Assembly (NCBI RefSeq): GCF_900104815.1
Contig: NZ_FNTD01000004.1
Span: 2,868,501 to 2,932,500, forward strand
Source of the DNA: Streptomyces misionensis
GTDB lineage: Bacteria; Actinomycetota; Actinomycetes; Streptomycetales; Streptomycetaceae
Length of the DNA stretch: 64,000 bases
Direction: 5' to 3'
Shown here piece by piece: positions 38,720 to 46,063 of this stretch. Under the pieces are notes generated by a model. The model ran no database searches, was not told where the DNA came from, and was given only the letters and a program-made list of their open reading frames with translations. The stretch's first letter is position 1, and every line of letters begins with the position of its first letter. Both the position numbers and the translations under genes were made by a program.

Positions 38720-39301
38720 TCAGCGCTTGCCGGCGAACTTCCACGCGGTGGGCAGCAGACCCATCGCGAGCGCGGCCTTGAGGGCGTCGCCGATCAGGAA
38801 GGGGACGAGGCCGACCGCCGCCGCCTGGGCGAGGGAGTAGTGGGCGGCCAGGGCCAGGTACGGGACGCCGACCGCGTAGATGACGGCCGAGCCGAGGACC
38901 ATCGTGCCCGCCATGCGCAGCGGGGAGCGGTCGGCGCCGCGGCGGGCCAGGGCGCCCACGACGGCGGAGGCCAGCAGCATGCCGAGGACGTAGCCGAAGG
39001 AGACGGAACCGGAACCGGAGTCGCCGCCCGCGAACCACGGCACACCGGCCACGCCGGCCAGCGCGTACAGGGCGAGGGAGAGGAAGCCGCGGCGGGCGCC
39101 GAGCGCGGTGCCGACCAGCAGCGCGGCGAAGGTCTGACCGGTCACCGGCACCGGGGAGCCGGGCACGGGCACCGACAGCTGGGCCGCGAGGCCGGTGAGC
39201 GCGGCGCCGCCGAGCACGAGGGCGGCGTCGCGGACGCGGGACGCGGGCAGCAGATCGGCGAGGACGGCACCCGGGCGGGTGGAGACGGTGGCGGTGCTCA
39301 T
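38720..39301 (-). CDS. bioY: Biotin transporter S-component BioY
   Basis: The 193-residue membrane protein has six helices and the BioY motifs VPVPGSPVPVTGQTFAALLVG, GVAGVPWFAGG and GYVLGMLLA. BioY binds biotin and works with ECF ATPase and T components. No bioM or bioN is adjacent, so it either works alone or uses a shared ECF module encoded elsewhere. I chose ATG 39301 (MSTATVSTRP), with GGAG upstream. Confidence 0.92.
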   Translation of the reverse strand: MSTATVSTRPGAVLADLLPASRVRDAALVLGGAALTGLAAQLSVPVPGSPVPVTGQTFAALLVGTALGARRGFLSLALYALAGVAGVPWFAGGDSGSGSVSFGYVLGMLLASAVVGALARRGADRSPLRMAGTMVLGSAVIYAVGVPYLALAAHYSLAQAAAVGLVPFLIGDALKAALAMGLLPTAWKFAGKR

Positions 39302-39587
39302 GGGGACTCCGCGGGATGAAGGGGACAGGTGGGAACACCGCGACGCTATACCGGCGCCCCGAATCCGATCACCGTCAGCGCCCGACAAAGGGGTGATCGC
39401 CGACTTGGTGGGCTCCGCACAAAGTGCGCGCCTTACATCGGGCGCGGCGTGATTACGGTCACTGAGGTGGCGTGGTCCGGCAGACGCGGGCCGCATACGG
39501 CGCGTCTGTAGGTTTCCCCCAAAGGTCCGCGACCGCCCGGACGACGGCCCCTGGGCGGCGCGGGGGCCGTTTGCTAGCTTCGGGCAC

Positions 39588-39674
39588 ATGGTTGCCCAGG
39601 CCCGGTACTTCACGTCGCGTCGCTATGTCGATCTGCGGCGTCAGGGCGCGGCCACCTGTCGCCGTCCGGGATAG
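39588..39674 (+). CDS. Cysteine-containing leader peptide upstream of the ROK gene
   Basis: A 28-codon frame reads MVAQARYFTSRRYVDL, then RRQGAATCRRPG and stop. It matches the Streptomyces 'putative leader peptide' pattern (R-R-x-V-D-L-x-R followed by a late Cys) found before sulfur-metabolism genes. A -10 box TAGCTT (39575-39580) lies 7 nt before the ATG, so the message is leaderless. After the stop, GGGCGG (39674-39679) can pair with CCGCCC (39691-39696). Ribosome stalling at the Cys codon near the end could control the genes downstream. Confidence 0.7.
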   Translation: MVAQARYFTSRRYVDLRRQGAATCRRPG

Positions 39675-39748
39675 GGCGGGCCCGCTCGGTCCGCCCCGTC
39701 CCTCCCGGTTCCCGATGTGTCGGCTCCGGTCCCCGAGGACGGTCTTCC

Positions 39749-40951
39749 ATGCCCCGCAGTGCGGCCCCCACCCTCGTCTCCCCCGTTCCGCGTGCCGCCG
39801 ACCGCGACCGGCGGCGCACCAGTGCCAGCGTCGTCCTGCGGTCCGTGCTGGAGCACGGACCGGTGGCGCGCAGCACCGTGGCGCGGCTGACCGGGCTGTC
39901 GCCCGCCTCGGTGACCGAGCACTGCGCCCGGCTCGCGGCCCTCGGGCTGATCCGGGAGTCGGCCGCCCCGCGCCGCTCGGGCGGGGTGGGGCGGCCGCAT
40001 GTGCCGGTGGAGCTGGACGACGCGCGGTTCGTGGTGGGCGGGGTGCACGTGGCGGTGCCGTACACCACGGTGGCGCTGCTGGATCTGCGCGGCCGGGTGC
40101 TGGTCCGGCGGGAGTTGACGCACCGGCGGACCGAGCCGCACGGGGTGCTGGCGCGGGCCGCGGAAGGGCTCGCGGCGCTGTTCGCGCAGGTGCCGGACCG
40201 GCGGCCGCTGGGGGTCGGGGTGGCCGTCGGCGGCTGGGTGGACCGGGCGGCGGGCACCGTGGTCGCACACGAGCTGCTGGGCTGGCGGGAGGTGCCGGTA
40301 CGGGAGCTGCTCGCCGCCCGCACCGGGCTGCCCGTGCACGTCGACGGGCACGCGCGGGCACTGGTGAACGCGGAGCGGCTGTTCGGGCGGGCCCGGGGCG
40401 GCGGGAGCGTGCTGCACCTGTTCATGGGCAATGTGGTGGACGCGGCGTTCGCCACCGGCGACGAGGTGCACCACGGGCCCCGGTCCGCGGCCGGTGCCAT
40501 CGCCCATCTGCCGGTGCCGGGCGGCAGCGAGCCGTGCCCGTGCGGGCGTACCGGCTGCCTCCAGGCGGAGCTGGGCGAGCGGACGTTGTGCCGCCGGGCC
40601 CGGGAGGCCGGGATCGTGGACGCGGCCGCCCGTCCGATGCGGGTGGTGGCCGCGGCGGCGGCCGGGGACGCGGTGGCCCGGCGGCTGCTGGTGGAGCGGG
40701 CGCGGGCGACGGGACGGGCGGCCGGGCTGCTGCTCGACGTGCTCAATCCGGAGACGGTCGTGGTCACCGAGGTGGGGATCATGCACGTCCCGGAGTGCCT
40801 GGACGCGCTCCGGGACGCGGTCGGGAATTCCCGCTCCGCCTCCGTGCTGCCGACGAGTTTCATCGATTCGGTGCTGGCCGTGGCGGGTGGTTCGGTGATG
40901 CTCGACGAGCTGTTCCGCGATCCTTTGAGCGCCTCACCTGAGGGTATTTAA
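39749..40951 (+). CDS. ROK-family transcriptional regulator
   Basis: The 400-residue protein has an N-terminal winged helix (about 25-80; ARSTVARLTGLSPASVTEHC) and a ROK sugar-kinase-like domain with the zinc motif CPCGRTGCLQAE. The glycine-rich ATP-site loop looks degenerate (GVGVAVGGWVDRAAG, no clear kinase DxGxT). ROK regulators normally sense sugars or sugar phosphates. Here it stands between two Cys leader peptides and precedes a sulfonate-type ABC operon, so it may respond to an organosulfur compound, perhaps a sulfo-sugar. ATG 39749 has GAGGACGG upstream. Confidence 0.88.
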   Translation: MPRSAAPTLVSPVPRAADRDRRRTSASVVLRSVLEHGPVARSTVARLTGLSPASVTEHCARLAALGLIRESAAPRRSGGVGRPHVPVELDDARFVVGGVHVAVPYTTVALLDLRGRVLVRRELTHRRTEPHGVLARAAEGLAALFAQVPDRRPLGVGVAVGGWVDRAAGTVVAHELLGWREVPVRELLAARTGLPVHVDGHARALVNAERLFGRARGGGSVLHLFMGNVVDAAFATGDEVHHGPRSAAGAIAHLPVPGGSEPCPCGRTGCLQAELGERTLCRRAREAGIVDAAARPMRVVAAAAAGDAVARRLLVERARATGRAAGLLLDVLNPETVVVTEVGIMHVPECLDALRDAVGNSRSASVLPTSFIDSVLAVAGGSVMLDELFRDPLSASPEGI

Positions 40952-40968
40952 TTCAGAAACTCGGAATG

Positions 40969-40998
40969 TTGACACCGGTCGCCCGGCACCGGGAACAT
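40969..40998 (+). promoter_or_regulatory. Promoter of the sulfonate operon
   Basis: A consensus TTGACA -35 (40969-40974), an 18-bp spacer and GAACAT (40993-40998) as -10 lead to ATG 41006 after 7 nt. The spacing predicts a leaderless transcript starting at the second leader peptide. Confidence 0.55.
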
Positions 40999-41005
40999 GC
41001 TGGTC

Positions 41006-41056
41006 ATGAGCCCTCTCACGAGCTGTCGGACCGGCTGTCGCGCCCTCTGTTGCTGA
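41006..41056 (+). CDS. Cys-rich leader peptide MSPLTSCRTGCRALCC
   Basis: A 16-codon frame has four Cys codons, ending Cys-Cys-stop. An in-frame ATG at 40997 would add three residues. The region lies between the ROK gene and the ABC transporter gene, on the operon strand, directly after a consensus promoter. The density of Cys codons is that of an amino-acid attenuator: with low Cys-tRNA the ribosome stalls and the RNA downstream refolds. A 6-bp hairpin begins 9 nt after the stop. I do not recognise this exact peptide as a known family. Confidence 0.6.
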   Translation: MSPLTSCRTGCRALCC

Positions 41057-41064
41057 CATGTTGC

Positions 41065-41081
41065 CGCGCATGAAGTGCGCG
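41065..41081 (+). promoter_or_regulatory. Hairpin just after the Cys-rich leader
   Basis: CGCGCA (41065-41070) pairs exactly with TGCGCG (41076-41081) across a TGAAG loop. Its place right after the leader peptide stop suits an attenuator or anti-terminator element. Confidence 0.4.
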
Positions 41082-41176
41082 TTTCCGTGAATTTCGCAGG
41101 GTTTCTCAGATGCTTCTCGGTGTTTCCCCGGGTTTCTCTGCGTGCTCTCCCTGTTTCCGTTGACCGGCTCTTTTCC
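41081..41176 (+). repeat. Helically phased TTTC tracts in the operon 5' UTR
   Basis: GTTTC(C/T)-like hexamers start at 41081, 41091, 41101, 41112 (GCTTCT), 41122, 41132, 41144 (degenerate GCTCTC), 41153 and 41171 (TTTTCC). Spacings are close to 10-11 bp, one DNA turn, with one place empty. The 10-nt steps break the codon frame, so this is not a protein repeat. It may be a binding array for a regulator, curved DNA, or an unstructured pyrimidine-rich RNA segment. It ends just before the transporter gene's ribosome site. Confidence 0.6.
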
Positions 41177-41188
41177 GGGAGACCTCCC

Positions 41189-42232
41189 ATGCACCGTCGC
41201 CTCTTTCTCACCTCACTGCTGGGCGCGTCCGCCGCCACCCTGGGCGTCGCCGGCTGCGCCAAGGGCGAGGCCGCCGCCGACACCGGGGGCGCCGCCACCC
41301 GGCCGCTGTCGGCCCGGGTGCCGTCCGGCACCAGCCTGAAGATCACCTCGTACCAGGGGGTGGAGCAACTCCAGTTCAGACTGGGGAAGTTCCCGCCGTT
41401 GCCGTTCACCGTGTCCGAGTGGGTGAACCTCGCCGCCGGACCCGATGTCATCAACGCCTTCCGCGCGAGGTCCCTGGACCTCGCCAACAACGCGGGCATC
41501 CCGCCGATCCAGGCGCGGTTCCAGGGCCTCGCCGCGAAGATCGTGGCGGTCGAGCTGACCCGCAAGCCGAACTACCTCTTCGCGACCCGGCCCGGCAGCG
41601 ACATCCGCTCCGTCGCCGACTTCAAGGGCAGGCGGCTCGCCTTCTCGCAGGGGCAGGCGCAGGGCGTGGTCCTGCTGCGCGCCCTGAAGCAGGCGGGCCT
41701 GGCGTACGGCCAGGTCACGCTGGTGCCGCTGACCAGCAACCAGTTCCTGACCGCCCTGCAGTCCGGGCAGGTCGACGTGGCCCCCCTCGCCAACAGCCAG
41801 GCGCCCGCCTACCTCCAGCAGTACGCGGCTAAGGGCGCCCGCACCGTCACCACCGACGTGGTCGACCTGCTCAATCTGCTGTGGGCGCCGCAGGCCGTGC
41901 TGAACGACCCCGCCAAGGCCGCCGCCATCGCCGCCTACATCCCGCGGTGGGCCCGGGGCCAGGTGTGGCAGTACGAGCACCCGGCCGAGTGGAACGAGGA
42001 GTTCTACGTCAAGACGCAGAACCTGAGCCCCGACCAGGCCCGGTCCGTCACCGCGCTCGCCGGCAAACCGCTGTTCCCGCCCAGTTGGGACGAGGCCGTC
42101 CGCTGGGAGCAGGAGACCGCCGATCTGCTCGCGGCGGGCGGCTTCGTCCGGCACACGGACGTGACCACGCTGTTCGACCGCCGCTTCGAGGCGATCGCCG
42201 CGCGGGCCGTACCCGAGGAGTACCGGAGGTGA
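41189..42232 (+). CDS. ABC transporter substrate-binding lipoprotein, sulfonate/nitrate/taurine type
   Basis: The 347-residue exported protein has a lipoprotein signal with lipobox VAGC (Cys about residue 22). The mature part resembles SsuA/TauA (PDVINAFRARSLDLANNAGI; RRLAFSQGQAQGVVLLRALKQAG; LQSGQVDVAPLANSQA). It should capture an alkanesulfonate or similar organosulfur compound outside the cell. ATG 41189 has GGGAG upstream. The frame is open further upstream, but that is the TTTC-tract region. Confidence 0.9.
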   Translation: MHRRLFLTSLLGASAATLGVAGCAKGEAAADTGGAATRPLSARVPSGTSLKITSYQGVEQLQFRLGKFPPLPFTVSEWVNLAAGPDVINAFRARSLDLANNAGIPPIQARFQGLAAKIVAVELTRKPNYLFATRPGSDIRSVADFKGRRLAFSQGQAQGVVLLRALKQAGLAYGQVTLVPLTSNQFLTALQSGQVDVAPLANSQAPAYLQQYAAKGARTVTTDVVDLLNLLWAPQAVLNDPAKAAAIAAYIPRWARGQVWQYEHPAEWNEEFYVKTQNLSPDQARSVTALAGKPLFPPSWDEAVRWEQETADLLAAGGFVRHTDVTTLFDRRFEAIAARAVPEEYRR

Positions 42233-42237
42233 CCGCC

Positions 42238-43074
42238 GTGACCACGACGACCGCCGCGCCCGCCACCGAGGCGGGCGCGCTGCCCCCGGTCCGCCGCCGG
42301 CGCCGGCTCGCCCCCGGCCGCCGGTGGCCCGCCGCCCGGCTGGCCGGTCCCCTGCTGGTGCTCGGCGCCTGGGCCGCCGCGTCGGCCGCGGGTCAGCTCG
42401 ATCCGGCCGCGATACCGGCGCCCTGGACGGTGCTGCGCACCCTCGGCCGGCTGTGGACCGACGGCACGCTGCCCACCGATGTGCTGACCTCGCTGCGGCG
42501 GGCCGGGTACGGCTTCGCGATCGGGCTGGCCGCCGGGGTGCTGCTCGCGCTGGTCGCCGGGCTCAGCCGGATAGGCGAGGCGCTGGTCGACGGCACGGTG
42601 CAGCTCAACCGGGCGATCCCCACCCTCGGTCTGATCCCGCTGTTCATCCTCTGGCTGGGCATCGGGGAGACGTTCAAGGTCGCCATCATCGCGATCGTCG
42701 TCTACATCCCGGTCTATCTGAACACGCATGCCGCGCTGGCCGGCATCGACAGCCGGTACGTCGAACTCGCCGAGGTGCAGGGCCTGTCGAAGCTCGCGTT
42801 CGTGCGCCGGGTGGTGATCCCGGGGGCGCTGCCCGGGTTCTTCGTGGGGCTGCGGCTCGGGGTGACCGGCTCCTGGCTGGGCCTGGTGGTGCTGGAGCAG
42901 ATCAACGCCACCAGCGGCCTCGGCTATCTGATGTTCCAGGCGCAGAACTACGGCCGTACCGACATCATCCTCGTCGGCCTGCTGATCTACGGCGTGCTCG
43001 GCCTGGTCTCCGACAGCGCGGTCCGTCTCGTCGAACGGAGGGTGCTGTCATGGCGCCGCACACTGAGCAGCTGA
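42238..43074 (+). CDS. ABC transporter permease, sulfonate type
   Basis: The 278-residue SsuC-like permease has six helices and the BPD_transp EAA loop (YVELAEVQGLSKLAFVRRVV). I chose GTG 42238 because GGAGGT at 42225-42230 is spaced 7 nt from it. GTG 42229, which overlaps the upstream stop codon, would place the site too close. It ends 25 bp inside the ATPase gene, consistent with tight coupling. Confidence 0.92.
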   Translation: MTTTTAAPATEAGALPPVRRRRRLAPGRRWPAARLAGPLLVLGAWAAASAAGQLDPAAIPAPWTVLRTLGRLWTDGTLPTDVLTSLRRAGYGFAIGLAAGVLLALVAGLSRIGEALVDGTVQLNRAIPTLGLIPLFILWLGIGETFKVAIIAIVVYIPVYLNTHAALAGIDSRYVELAEVQGLSKLAFVRRVVIPGALPGFFVGLRLGVTGSWLGLVVLEQINATSGLGYLMFQAQNYGRTDIILVGLLIYGVLGLVSDSAVRLVERRVLSWRRTLSS

Positions 43075-43784
43075 CCCGGCCCGCCGTCCGGCTGCGGGAC
43101 CTGAAGCGGTCGTTCGGGGGCCGTACGGTCCTCGACGGCATCGATCTGGAGCTGCCCGCCGGACAGTTCACGGCCCTGCTGGGGCGCTCCGGTTCTGGCA
43201 AGTCCACCCTGCTGCGGGCGGTCGCCGGACTCGACCACGGGGTGACCGGGACCGGGCACGTCGCGGCGCCGCGGCGGGTGTCGGTGGCCTTCCAGGACTC
43301 CCGGCTGCTGCCCTGGCGCCGGGTGCTGGACAACGTCGTGCTGGGCCTGGACGGAAAGGGCGCGGTGGAGCGCGGCCGGGCGGCCCTCGCGGAGGTCGGG
43401 CTGGCGGGCCGGGAGCGGGCCTGGCCGGGCGAGCTGTCCGGCGGCGAGGCGCAGCGGGCCGCGCTGGCCCGTGCCCTGGTCCGGGAGCCCGAACTGCTGC
43501 TGGCCGACGAGCCGTTCGGCGCCCTGGACGCGCTGACCCGGATCCGGATGCACCATCTGCTGCGCGAGCTGTGGGAGCGCCATCGGCCCTCCGTGCTGCT
43601 GGTCACCCATGACGTGGACGAGGCGATCGTGCTCGCCGACCGGGTCCTCGTCCTGGACCGCGGCCGCATCGGACTCGATCTGGCCGTCGACCGCCCCCAC
43701 CCGCGCTCCTACCGGGAGCCGCTGCTGGGCGAGTACCGGGAGCGGCTGCTGGCCGCCCTCGGCGTCACGGAGGACCACCGGTGA
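43050..43784 (+). CDS. ABC transporter ATP-binding protein, sulfonate type
   Basis: The 244-residue SsuB-like ATPase shows Walker A GRSGSGKST (about residues 45-53), Q-loop VAFQDSRLLPW, signature LSGGEAQR (about 129-136), Walker B LLLADEPFGALD and the H-loop LVTHDVDEA. It powers the transporter with the preceding permease. ATG 43050 overlaps the permease gene. Its stop overlaps the next start (GTGA). Confidence 0.94.
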   Translation: MAPHTEQLTRPAVRLRDLKRSFGGRTVLDGIDLELPAGQFTALLGRSGSGKSTLLRAVAGLDHGVTGTGHVAAPRRVSVAFQDSRLLPWRRVLDNVVLGLDGKGAVERGRAALAEVGLAGRERAWPGELSGGEAQRAALARALVREPELLLADEPFGALDALTRIRMHHLLRELWERHRPSVLLVTHDVDEAIVLADRVLVLDRGRIGLDLAVDRPHPRSYREPLLGEYRERLLAALGVTEDHR

Positions 43785-45121
43785 CCGCGGCACGGCGACT
43801 GCACCTGAACGCGTTCCTCATGAACACCGGCCACCACGAGGCCTCCTGGCGGCTGCCGGAGAGCGACCCGTACGCGCACGTCGACCCGCGGCACTACGTA
43901 CGGCTCGCGCGGATCGCCGAGCGCGGCACCTTCGACAGCGTGTTCCTGGCCGACAGCCCGCAGTTGTGGAGCGACATCGGGCAGCGTCCGGCGGGTGCCC
44001 TGGAGCCGCTGACCCTGCTGACCGCGCTGGCGACGGCCACCGAGCACATCGGCCTGATCGCCACCGCCTCCACCTCCTACAACTCGCCCTACGACCTGGC
44101 CCGCCGGCTCGCCTCGCTGGACATCGTCAGCGGCGGCCGGGCCGGCTGGAACATCGTCACCACCGCCGGCGCGGAGGCGGCGCGCAACTTCGGTCTGGAG
44201 CAGGAGCCGCCGCACGCCGAGCGGTACGCGCGCGCCGCCGACTTCCTGGACGTGGCGCTGAAGCTGTGGGACAGCTGGGAGGACGACGCGATCGTCGCCG
44301 ACAAGGCCGCCGGTGTCTGGGGCGACGACCGCAAGATCCATCCGCCCCGGCACGAGGGACCGTACTTCCGGGTCGCGGGCGCGCTCAACGTGCCGCGCTC
44401 CCCGCAGGCGCGTCCGCTGCTGGTGCAGGCGGGCTCCTCGGCGGACGGCAAGGCGTTCGCGGCGCGGTACGCGGAGGCGGTGTTCACCGCGCAGCAGACC
44501 CTCGCCGACGCGCAGGTCTTCTACGCGGACCTCAAGTACCGCACCCGGCGGGCCGGACGGAACCCCGAGCACCTCAAGGTGCTGCCCGGGATCGTGCCGG
44601 TCATCGGGTCCACGGAGGCCGAGGCGCGGGCGGCCGAGCGGGTCCTGGAGGACCACATCGTGCCCGAGCACGGGCTCAGGCGCCTGGAACGGCTGCTCCA
44701 GCTCGCGCCCGACTCGCTGGAGCTGGACCGGCGGCTGCCCGGGGACCTGCCGCCCGAGTCCGCCGTCGAGGGCGCCAGGAGCCGCTACACCCTCGTGGTG
44801 TCGCTGGCCCGGCGCGAGCAGCTCACCGTGCGGCAGCTGATCGGCCGGCTCGGCGGCGGGCGCGGGCACCAGACCTTCGCCGGGACGCCCGAGCAGATCG
44901 CGGACCGGATCGAGACCTGGTTCACGCAAGGAGCGGCCGACGGCTTCAACGTCATGCCGCCCGTGCTGCCCTCGGGCCTGGACGCCTTCGTGGAGCACGT
45001 CGTACCGGTCCTGCGCGCCCGGGGGCTGTTCCGCGAGGGGTACGGCCCGCACCGGACCCTGCGCGAGCGCTACGGCCTGCCCCGCCCCGCCAACCGGTAC
45101 CCGACCCCTTCCCACAGCTGA
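43781..45121 (+). CDS. LLM-class flavin-dependent monooxygenase (NtaA/SnaA/DmoA type)
   Basis: The 446-residue luciferase-like enzyme has the family pattern LHLNAFLMNTGHH, GTFDSVFLADS, IGLIATASTSYNSPYDLARRLA and GRAGWNIVTT. These long LLM enzymes use FMNH2 from a separate reductase to cleave sulfonates, sulfones, aminopolycarboxylates or dimethyl sulfide. No flavin reductase gene is adjacent. Its place in a sulfonate operon suggests C-S bond oxidation releasing sulfite. The GTG start overlaps the ATPase stop by 4 nt. Confidence 0.9.
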   Translation: MTAARRLHLNAFLMNTGHHEASWRLPESDPYAHVDPRHYVRLARIAERGTFDSVFLADSPQLWSDIGQRPAGALEPLTLLTALATATEHIGLIATASTSYNSPYDLARRLASLDIVSGGRAGWNIVTTAGAEAARNFGLEQEPPHAERYARAADFLDVALKLWDSWEDDAIVADKAAGVWGDDRKIHPPRHEGPYFRVAGALNVPRSPQARPLLVQAGSSADGKAFAARYAEAVFTAQQTLADAQVFYADLKYRTRRAGRNPEHLKVLPGIVPVIGSTEAEARAAERVLEDHIVPEHGLRRLERLLQLAPDSLELDRRLPGDLPPESAVEGARSRYTLVVSLARREQLTVRQLIGRLGGGRGHQTFAGTPEQIADRIETWFTQGAADGFNVMPPVLPSGLDAFVEHVVPVLRARGLFREGYGPHRTLRERYGLPRPANRYPTPSHS

Positions 45122-45160: not shown

Positions 45161-46063
45161 ATGTCACTGGAGATCACCAAGGTCACCGCGCGCATCGGCG
45201 CCCGCGTCCGGGGTGTCGACCTCACCCGGCCGCTCACCGAGGCGGAGGTGACCGGCATCCGCGAGGCCCTCAACGTCCACAAGGCGCTGGTCTTCGCCGC
45301 CGAGGGCCTGGACGACGCGGGCCAGCAGGCCTTCGCCCGGCACTTCGGCGAGCTGACCACCGCCCATCCGACCGTCGAGGCCGTCGAGGGCGCCCCGAAC
45401 GTGCTCCCCGTGGACAGCGAGCGGGGCATCGCCAACCACTGGCACACGGACGTCACCTTCGTCCTCAATCCGCCGCAGGCCAGCACCCTGCGCTCGATCA
45501 CCGTCCCGCCGTACGGCGGCGAGACCCTGATCGCGAACGCGGCGGCCGCCTACCGGGACCTGCCCGAGCCGCTGCGCCGCTTCGCGGACACCCTGTGGGC
45601 CGAGCACACCAACGACTACGACTACGCCGTACCGGACGAGGAGATCGACGCGGAGCTGGCCGAGCGCCGCGCCCGGTTCACCTCGATCAGGTACCGCACC
45701 GCCCACCCGGTGGTCCGCGTGCACCCGCTGACCGGGGAACGCGGGCTGTTCATCGGCGGGTTCGCGCAGCGGATCACTGGCCTGTCGGTGGGCGAGTCGC
45801 GCAAGGTGCTCGACCTGCTCCAGTCCTACGTCACCCGCCCGGAGAACATCCTGCGCCACCGCTGGGCGGAGGGCGAGCTGGTGCTGTTCGACAACCGGAT
45901 CACCCAGCACTACGCCATCGACAACTACGACGGGCTGCCGCGCCGGCTGCACCGGGTGACCGTCGCCGGTGACGTCCCGGTCGGCGTCGAGGGCAAGGAG
46001 AGTTACTCCATCGAGGGCGACGCCTCGCACTACACGCCCGTCGGGGACCCCGTGGCGGTGTAA
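45161..46063 (+). CDS. TauD/TfdA-family Fe(II)/2-oxoglutarate dioxygenase
   Basis: The 300-residue enzyme carries the 2-His-1-Asp iron site (His and Asp in HWHTDVTF at about 93-98, distal His in RRLHRVTV near 268). The 2-oxoglutarate Arg is probably the one in the same C-terminal block. The start resembles taurine dioxygenase or alkyl-sulfatase AtsK (TARIGARVRGVDLTRPL). It hydroxylates the carbon next to sulfur, releasing sulfite or sulfate. It follows the LLM gene by 39 bp with its own AAAGGA site and probably ends the operon. Confidence 0.92.
   Translation: MSLEITKVTARIGARVRGVDLTRPLTEAEVTGIREALNVHKALVFAAEGLDDAGQQAFARHFGELTTAHPTVEAVEGAPNVLPVDSERGIANHWHTDVTFVLNPPQASTLRSITVPPYGGETLIANAAAAYRDLPEPLRRFADTLWAEHTNDYDYAVPDEEIDAELAERRARFTSIRYRTAHPVVRVHPLTGERGLFIGGFAQRITGLSVGESRKVLDLLQSYVTRPENILRHRWAEGELVLFDNRITQHYAIDNYDGLPRRLHRVTVAGDVPVGVEGKESYSIEGDASHYTPVGDPVAV

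Follow-up and report, generated by a model that had tools for sequence, protein, structure and literature searches.

In a 64,000-nucleotide stretch of the Streptomyces misionensis genome (contig NZ_FNTD01000004.1; referred to here as the window), we closely examined two short open reading frames (ORFs) with Cys codons, here named leader 1 and leader 2. Leader 1 precedes a gene for a ROK-family regulator, and leader 2 precedes an operon of genes from sulfur-related families. Comparison with related loci bears out the ORFs, their placement relative to the promoters, their conserved Cys codons, an adjoining dyad, and the link to sulfur genes. Both leaders are real, conserved elements and most likely attenuators of the kind known from mycobacteria. 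The features of the locus are as follows (window coordinates; bit scores are from profile searches):

39551 to 39580, plus strand: leader 1 promoter, with a weak −35-like CTGGGC at 39551 to 39556 (by eye), 18 nt, and −10 TAGCTT at 39575 to 39580
39588 to 39674, plus strand: leader 1 ORF, with an RRYVDLRR motif, a single Cys codon TGT at 39657 to 39659, stop codon TAG at 39672 to 39674, and a putative leaderless start
39674 to 39696, plus strand: hairpin after leader 1, GGGCGGGCC/GGTCCGCCC, beginning inside the stop codon, 9 pairs, 5-nt loop
39749 to 40951, plus strand: ROK-family regulator with a winged-helix-like N-terminal region (PF00480, 102.4 bits, over cut-off)
40951 to 40967, plus strand: 17-bp dyad ATTCAGAAACTCGGAAT, 1 nt 5′ of the −35 box and overlapping the ROK stop codon; candidate operator
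40969 to 40998, plus strand: leader 2 promoter, with −35 TTGACA at 40969 to 40974, an 18-nt spacer, and −10 GAACAT at 40993 to 40998
41006 to 41056, plus strand: leader 2 ORF, MSPLTSCRTGCRALCC, with Cys codons at 41024, 41036, 41048, and 41051 and stop codon TGA at 41054 to 41056, followed by C
41036 to 41058, plus strand: possible stem 1:2 within the leader 2 ORF, TGTCGCG at 41036 to 41042 with TGCTGACA at 41051 to 41058
41065 to 41081, plus strand: hairpin after leader 2, CGCGCA/TGCGCG, then TTT
41189 to 42232, plus strand: SsuA-like lipoprotein, a substrate-binding protein (PF09084, 49.7 bits, over cut-off; TIGR01728, 100.5 bits, cut-off 163.5)
42226 to 43074, plus strand, start approximate: SsuC-like permease (PF00528, over cut-off; NF008470, 182 bits, under cut-off 347)
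43071 to 43784, plus strand: SsuB-like ATPase (PF00005, over cut-off; NF008420, 254 bits, under cut-off 395)
43781 to 45121, plus strand: NtaA/DmoA-family flavin mononucleotide (FMN)-dependent monooxygenase (TIGR03860, 539.9 bits, over cut-off 279.7)
45161 to 46063, plus strand: TauD-family dioxygenase (PF02668, 196.6 bits, over cut-off)

The substrate of the operon is likely a sulfonate. TIGR03860 and the main Pfam domains of the operon score above their cut-offs, and we do not put the assignment more firmly because the Ssu-named NCBIfam models all stay below theirs. The first-pass annotation had spoken of a sulfonate operon; the sulfur-gene families agree with this, but the SsuA-like protein falls short of TIGR01728 and the monooxygenase is of the NtaA/DmoA family. 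The ROK protein also matched MarR_2, with 23.8 bits and under the cut-off of that model. A minus-strand BioY-family gene (38720 to 39301) is oriented divergently from leader 1.

Leader 1 encodes the peptide MVAQARYFTSRRYVDLRRQGAATCRRPG from an ATG at 39588. Leader 2, as the first-pass annotation had described, encodes 16 residues with four Cys and ends in Cys-Cys-stop, and it thereby shows the consecutive Cys codons that are typical of polycysteine attenuators. We also confirmed two further points of that annotation, namely a −10 box (TAGCTT and GAACAT) ending 7 nt upstream of each ATG and a pairing hairpin after each ORF. A second in-frame ATG upstream of leader 2, at 40997, overlaps the −10 box, which makes 41006 the likelier start. 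Among 507 ATG and GTG starts of 7- to 30-residue frames in the window (both strands, nested starts included), four give a Cys-Cys end with at least three Cys. Two of these are the leader 2 starts, two belong to one other frame, and 41006 alone among the four has NANNNT 7 nt upstream. In leaderless transcripts of Streptomyces lividans, position 2 of the −10 box is A in 94.5% and position 6 is T in 97.4%, with a mean −10-to-start distance of 6.3 nt over start sites (PMC8079986; this and the other PMC articles are cited from excerpts). Since the −10 boxes and the 7-nt spacing at both leaders match these figures, both promoters fit transcripts that would begin directly at the ATG.

Furthermore, we compared 110 ssuA-like loci, 30 from a genome set including the window's own and the best 80 of 135 Streptomyces contigs, some of them probably duplicates of one species. 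A promoter search that left the peptide unconstrained found TTGAC, a −10 box [AG]ANCAT, and a start codon 7 nt on in 93 of the 110 loci, with a spacer of always 18 nt; 91 of the 93 resulting peptides end in Cys-Cys-stop. When all forms are counted, a Cys-codon leader is present at the ssuA-like promoter in 107 of the 110 loci: 90 belong to a short CRTLCC class, eight read RVVDL...CC, three, all from another genus, read RVIDL...C, and six have a third form. The second peptide thus recurs before ssuA-like genes of other Streptomyces with its Cys codons kept, as the first-pass annotation had proposed to check. Members of the short class, near variants included, have 8 (22 loci), 11 (5), 12 (62), or 16 residues (1, the window); the contig of Streptomyces violaceoruber (L094), for example, encodes MSCRTLCC. 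In the window a 12-nt partial repeat gives rise to the fourth Cys codon, and no other leader among the 90 is as long. The RxVDL motif is absent from the window's leader 2 and from the 90 leaders of the short class.

The third form (e.g., MTSRQRNSRNVPQAARSCRAAAPVSDIARRSCCRPCPGNR) occurs in a 55%-identity clade, in six of its seven loci among the 110 (none was found in L023) and in seven of ten loci of this clade examined in total (not found in L023, L155, and L156). These seven leaders (L024, L025, L027, L028, L029, L030, and L154) have 35 to 40 residues, TGT TGT in five cases, and include the ending ...SCCRPCPG, so that Cys codons near the end persist across four differing peptides. In L024, a frame that is flavin-reductase-like as judged by sequence lies between leader and ssuA. 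Neither a ROK gene nor leader 2 is present in L006 and L103, which instead carry a leader-1-type frame upstream of ssuA. Among five more distant loci, four of Streptomyces (L150 to L153) have RR[AS]VDL leaders 7 nt after a −10 box and the fifth, L157, has none; a frame with RRRSIDL is present in L158, which belongs to another family, and no −10 box stands there at the 7-nt distance. Just 3′ of the leader 2 stop, five loci (L073, L074, L081, L086, and L087) contain a direct repeat of ~20 nt including TGTTGCTGACACGT, and L018 has tandem TTGACACG repeats directly 3′ of the stop.

A strict pattern for the leader 2 core gave 20 matches in 20 of 121 genomes scanned, and a reversed-pattern control gave one; the window itself is missed owing to its 12-nt repeat. 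Nineteen of the 20 matches precede an ssuA-like gene and one (G077) precedes tauD. Of 295 genomes, 190 gave matches to a looser pattern, for the most part background hits with different codons. The form TGTCGC[AG]C-4-TGTTGCTGA, chosen after viewing these matches and counted by eye, lies within ~220 nt upstream of an ssuA-like gene in 34 of the 36 matches listed; the other two lie before tauD (G345) and before an ORF called monooxygenase-like from its sequence alone (G283, leader ending in ...SRRHVDLLRVAGMLCRSESRCRAACC). In G345, tauD follows leader 2 at ~240 nt, in a stretch with a ROK gene and without ssuABC and the monooxygenase gene. In G077, leader 2 has a 6-nt spacing, the ROK gene is a fragment, and the last dyad bases are changed. 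These two collapsed operons, with neither ssuABC nor the monooxygenase gene in the stretch, correspond to L148 (2567 to 3749) and L159 (2945 to 4146); in L159 the ROK gene is reduced to a fragment and the dyad is changed.

Leader 1 was found in all 72 ROK loci with sufficient upstream sequence; in 35 further ROK loci the upstream stretch is too short to judge. NANNNT stands 6 to 8 nt 5′ of the start in 72 of 72, and the RxVDL motif, which the search for these loci itself used, is present in the window's leader 1 and in 72 of 72. Together with the 107 ssuA-like loci, this supports the earlier claim of two Cys-codon leaders tied to a sulfur operon. The same annotation had called the first leader type established. 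Leader 1 does show the RRxVDL...C pattern, but this type rests on NF042934, a model for a "putative leader peptide," and no experiment on it was found in the literature searched. Since NF042934 scores leader 1 at 21.7 bits, under its curated cut-off of 27, we call leader 1 a close relative of this class and not a member. The model matched 11 places in the window's own genome, six of them above cut-off and followed, in order, by luciferase-like, rhodanese, flavin reductase, sulfite reductase, GST-like, and rhodanese genes. Leader 1 is among the five weaker matches, as are an ABC protein and an SDF symporter; neither of the remaining two, one of them before a 2OG-Fe(II) oxygenase gene, has a leader-like frame. 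Weak matches may be due to chance, since 6 of 14 control genomes also gave matches, none above cut-off. Elsewhere in the genome, a Cys-rich frame ending in ...QRLHVDLCLCMSAACCV (L146, C4:7828380-7828415, minus strand) precedes an SDF-family symporter gene and is possibly a further Cys leader; a stricter pattern for other Cys-Cys leaders found none in this genome.

The second leader had been described as unfamiliar, yet it is not unrelated to the first type. The RVVDL form reads CCG CTC ACC AAG TGC CGT-(nine codons)-ACA CGT TGT TGC TGA C, the short form reads CCG CTC ACG AGC TGT CGC ACC CTC TGT TGC TGA C, and both flanks are common to the two. Leader 2 is thus very probably an RVVDL-type leader shortened by nine codons, and this loss is the simplest history because the flanks match and the outgroups carry RxVDL forms. 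In a tree of 103 rows, whose bootstrap had not settled, seven RVVDL rows form one supported group with L018 (MSCRSFRTLCC) and L103; the direction of change rests on the outgroups, as the Streptomyces backbone of the tree is unresolved. L018, nested in the RVVDL group, may represent a second shortening. One leader in G283 (L149, 943 to 1044) combines RRHVDL with a CRAACC end and bridges the two forms.

Codon choice for Cys was strikingly uneven. The ssuA-like genes use 108 TGC and 3 TGT codons, and the leader 1 frames use TGT for 74 of 75 Cys codons, window included. In the short class of leader 2 (n = 90), TGT occupies codon −6 in 89 and codon −2 in 90, codon −1 is TGC in 89, and the base after TGA is C in 90. 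A sensor would gain sharpness from a slow wobble codon, and RNA pairing could account for some of the leader 2 codon positions but would not explain codon −2. Such constraint on codons bears on the idea that the peptides act in trans, e.g., as redox- or metal-binding Cys peptides. The Cys-rich ends and Cys-Cys pairs would suit this role, which is nonetheless very unlikely in view of the codon constraint, the differing peptides found at the same promoter, the variable N-terminal residues, and a shortest form of eight residues (22 of 90). The invariant TGA-C could also mean that slow termination or readthrough at UGA-C, and not the sensing of tRNA-Cys, underlies the action of leader 2, and in the window the frame indeed stays open into ssuA. 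We consider this highly improbable, since ssuA shares the frame of the leader stop in 33 of 90 loci and lies in another frame in 57, as expected by chance, and since pairing with the first Cys codon can account for the C. Readthrough into ssuA was rejected on the random distribution of the three frame relations (33, 29, and 28 of 90).

The dyad ATTCnGAnnnTCnGAAT is present with at most one mismatch in 96 of the 110 loci, always exactly 1 nt 5′ of TTGAC, and with two to four mismatches in 11 further loci, among them L052, L054, and L023, in the last of which it does not adjoin TTGAC. The dyad of L027 has four mismatches, and no ROK gene was found in this short locus; L006 and L103, which are without ROK, have no such site. 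In the window's own genome the perfect dyad occurs only here, and two other sites have one mismatch. The dyad is probably the operator of the ROK protein and would add a further layer of control to the leader 2 promoter. As it is conserved as well as the leader, it might be argued that dyad and regulator do all the work and that the leader is a passive relic. This is scarcely credible, because leader 2 is kept in G077 despite the truncated ROK gene and altered dyad, and also, with one Cys fewer, in G251 (L163), where the retrieved stretch showed neither a ROK gene nor an intact dyad.

The reading that we favor, with a probability of roughly 80%, is ribosome-mediated, cysteine-responsive attenuation of both the regulator and its target by leaderless Cys leaders. 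Both short frames would encode leader peptides that gauge charged tRNA-Cys. When cysteine is scarce, ribosomes would pause at the Cys codons near the frame end, the mRNA just downstream would refold, and the next gene would be expressed. Leader 1 would gate the ROK regulator and leader 2 the sulfur-scavenging operon, whose promoter additionally carries the dyad, a probable binding site of the ROK protein. In this way the cell would sense its cysteine supply at two points, once at the regulator and once at the target.

Stems are present at both leaders. The stop-codon stem of leader 1 changes on both sides in some relatives (GAGGCG/CGCCTC, GAGTCG/CGACTC, and GAGCCG/CGGCTC), with G-C, U-A, and C-G at one position. 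In 18 aligned rows, picked from 55 for one spacer type with the similar L075 and L095 left out, a 17-pair structure forms in 96.5% of cells (shuffled, 94.2%; 0/500 as high) with five double-sided changes (shuffled, 1.1; 0/500), figures biased towards the structure, as it derives from a 14-row fold with 13 rows within the 18. The count of doubly changed pairs is unexceptional (92/500 shuffles as high), and an automatic consensus fold of the same rows agrees on the Shine-Dalgarno (SD) hairpin only. For leader 2, the mean z was −1.50 for stem 1:2 (71 distinct relatives), −1.06 for hairpin 3:4, and −0.44 for stem 2:3. Stem 1:2 is nearly invariant in sequence, which makes covariation uninformative; the hairpin after the ORF has related hairpins in relatives, with little covariation in the 43 distinct segments used out of 58 (the other 15, which differ in length, were excluded).

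With a ribosome masked at the Cys codon of leader 1, predicted SD accessibility exceeded that of unmasked RNA in 51 of 72 sequences (p = 0.004). The fold of the window pairs the codons after the leader 1 Cys with the SD, and by eye this pairing is not kept in relatives. Release of a sequestered SD by stalling was not supported by masked folding at leader 1 or at leader 2, where the SD was misplaced in part of the rows, many relatives starting upstream of the aligned position. Neither post-leader hairpin is a clear intrinsic terminator, and such a terminator was dropped as the output of the leaders, as no clear one was found. As to a possible Rho-type spacer, base composition came to 39% C and 21% G when 90 relatives were pooled and to 29% C and 25% G in the window. 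Rfam gave two weak matches, both below gathering scores. Folding did not discriminate between translational and transcriptional attenuation.

Several observations weigh against attenuation. Leader 1 has a single Cys codon in the window and no Cys run, and 71 of 73 leader 1 frames have only one, unlike the consecutive Cys codons of polycysteine attenuators. A simple sigma-70 scan called no promoter in 39300 to 41300, because the −10 and/or −35 boxes lie below its consensus demand, and an intrinsic terminator search found a single terminator-like site at 41116 to 41132 (0.9 expected by chance), which is neither hairpin. No short leader frame was found at the first two strong NF042934 matches (luciferase-like and rhodanese). 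Control windows downstream of leader 2 gave z values of −0.04 and −1.09, the latter about that of hairpin 3:4. In masked folding, a Cys stall left the SD of leader 1 freer than a ribosome at the stop codon in 39 of 72 sequences (p = 0.15), every masking lowered SD accessibility in the window's leader 1, and for leader 2 the Cys-stall and stop medians were nearly the same across 74 sequences. Variation within the CRTLCC class is low, and its conservation is partly shared ancestry. The leader of G251, MSPFTSCRTLCR, 7 nt after GAGCAT, lacks the Cys-Cys end; it lies 394 bases before the reverse-strand end, has lost one terminal Cys, and is possibly a decaying switch.

In particular, the lack of a stall-specific switch in the folds would agree with upstream ORFs that are constitutive and determine the basal expression level or couple translation but do not sense cysteine, and leaderless upstream ORFs are common in mycobacteria (PMC4633059). 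We regard this as unlikely, since near-end Cys codons, with the rare TGT, are kept over four peptide forms and since the strong NF042934 matches neighbor sulfur-like genes. Cysteine-responsive attenuation remains the better account of these features. A more specific proposal, on which we would place even odds, is that leader 2 is an attenuator minimized in nature through internal loss of the RVVDL block, a switch of eight to twelve codons with the nearly constant parts TGT-CGC...TGT-TGC-TGA-C, which forms a two-layer cysteine gate with leader 1 and the ROK dyad. If true, the minimized leader 2 would show the RRxVDL block to be dispensable. The locus offers a natural series of four peptides at one promoter, all of which retain Cys codons and two of which have lost the RRxVDL block. 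It allows a direct test of what this block and the rare TGT codon contribute, and it hints at a way for a sensor to shrink to about eight codons.

Among known systems, the closest are the polycysteine attenuators of mycobacteria, leaderless small ORFs that were tested for a cysteine response (Canestrari et al. 2020, via PMC13236596, PMC9094748, and PMC9031893; PMC4633059). As far as these excerpts describe them, they share with our leaders a short ORF, whose leaderless start is predicted here, Cys codons near the stop, a position before sulfur genes, and proposed stalling. In contrast to them, leader 2 can consist of just eight codons with a lone Cys-Cys pair, leader 1 contains a single Cys, the regulator and the target have a leader each, and an SD switch is only hypothetical here. 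A system described in 2005 (PMC1262725) likewise has a short ORF with Cys codons close to its stop and lacks an obvious terminator; its excerpts name no Streptomyces Cys leader or sulfonate-type operon. The NF042934 class (cis_reg_atten) shares its RRxVDL...C pattern with leader 1 and with the RVVDL form found at the leader 2 site in relatives, whereas leader 1 scores below its cut-off and leader 2 is without RxVDL. The amino-acid leader peptides of S. lividans TK24 are leaderless, as is predicted for ours; the excerpted table of eight covers Leu, Trp, Ala, Ile, Met, and Thr and none for Cys, though the metL peptide has three Cys (PMC8079986). No report of a Cys leader in Streptomyces was found in the literature searched, which omits most subscription papers. 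SsuR and CysR of Corynebacterium glutamicum are likewise ROK-type proteins that act on sulfur genes, including those for sulfonate sulfur, and on inverted repeats by the promoter (PMC2580772); the ROK protein studied here may resemble them, with its ROK domain and likely sulfonate-type neighbors, and its DNA binding is predicted. Within the literature searched, the minimal form and the double arrangement appear to be new, while the kind of mechanism is known from mycobacteria.

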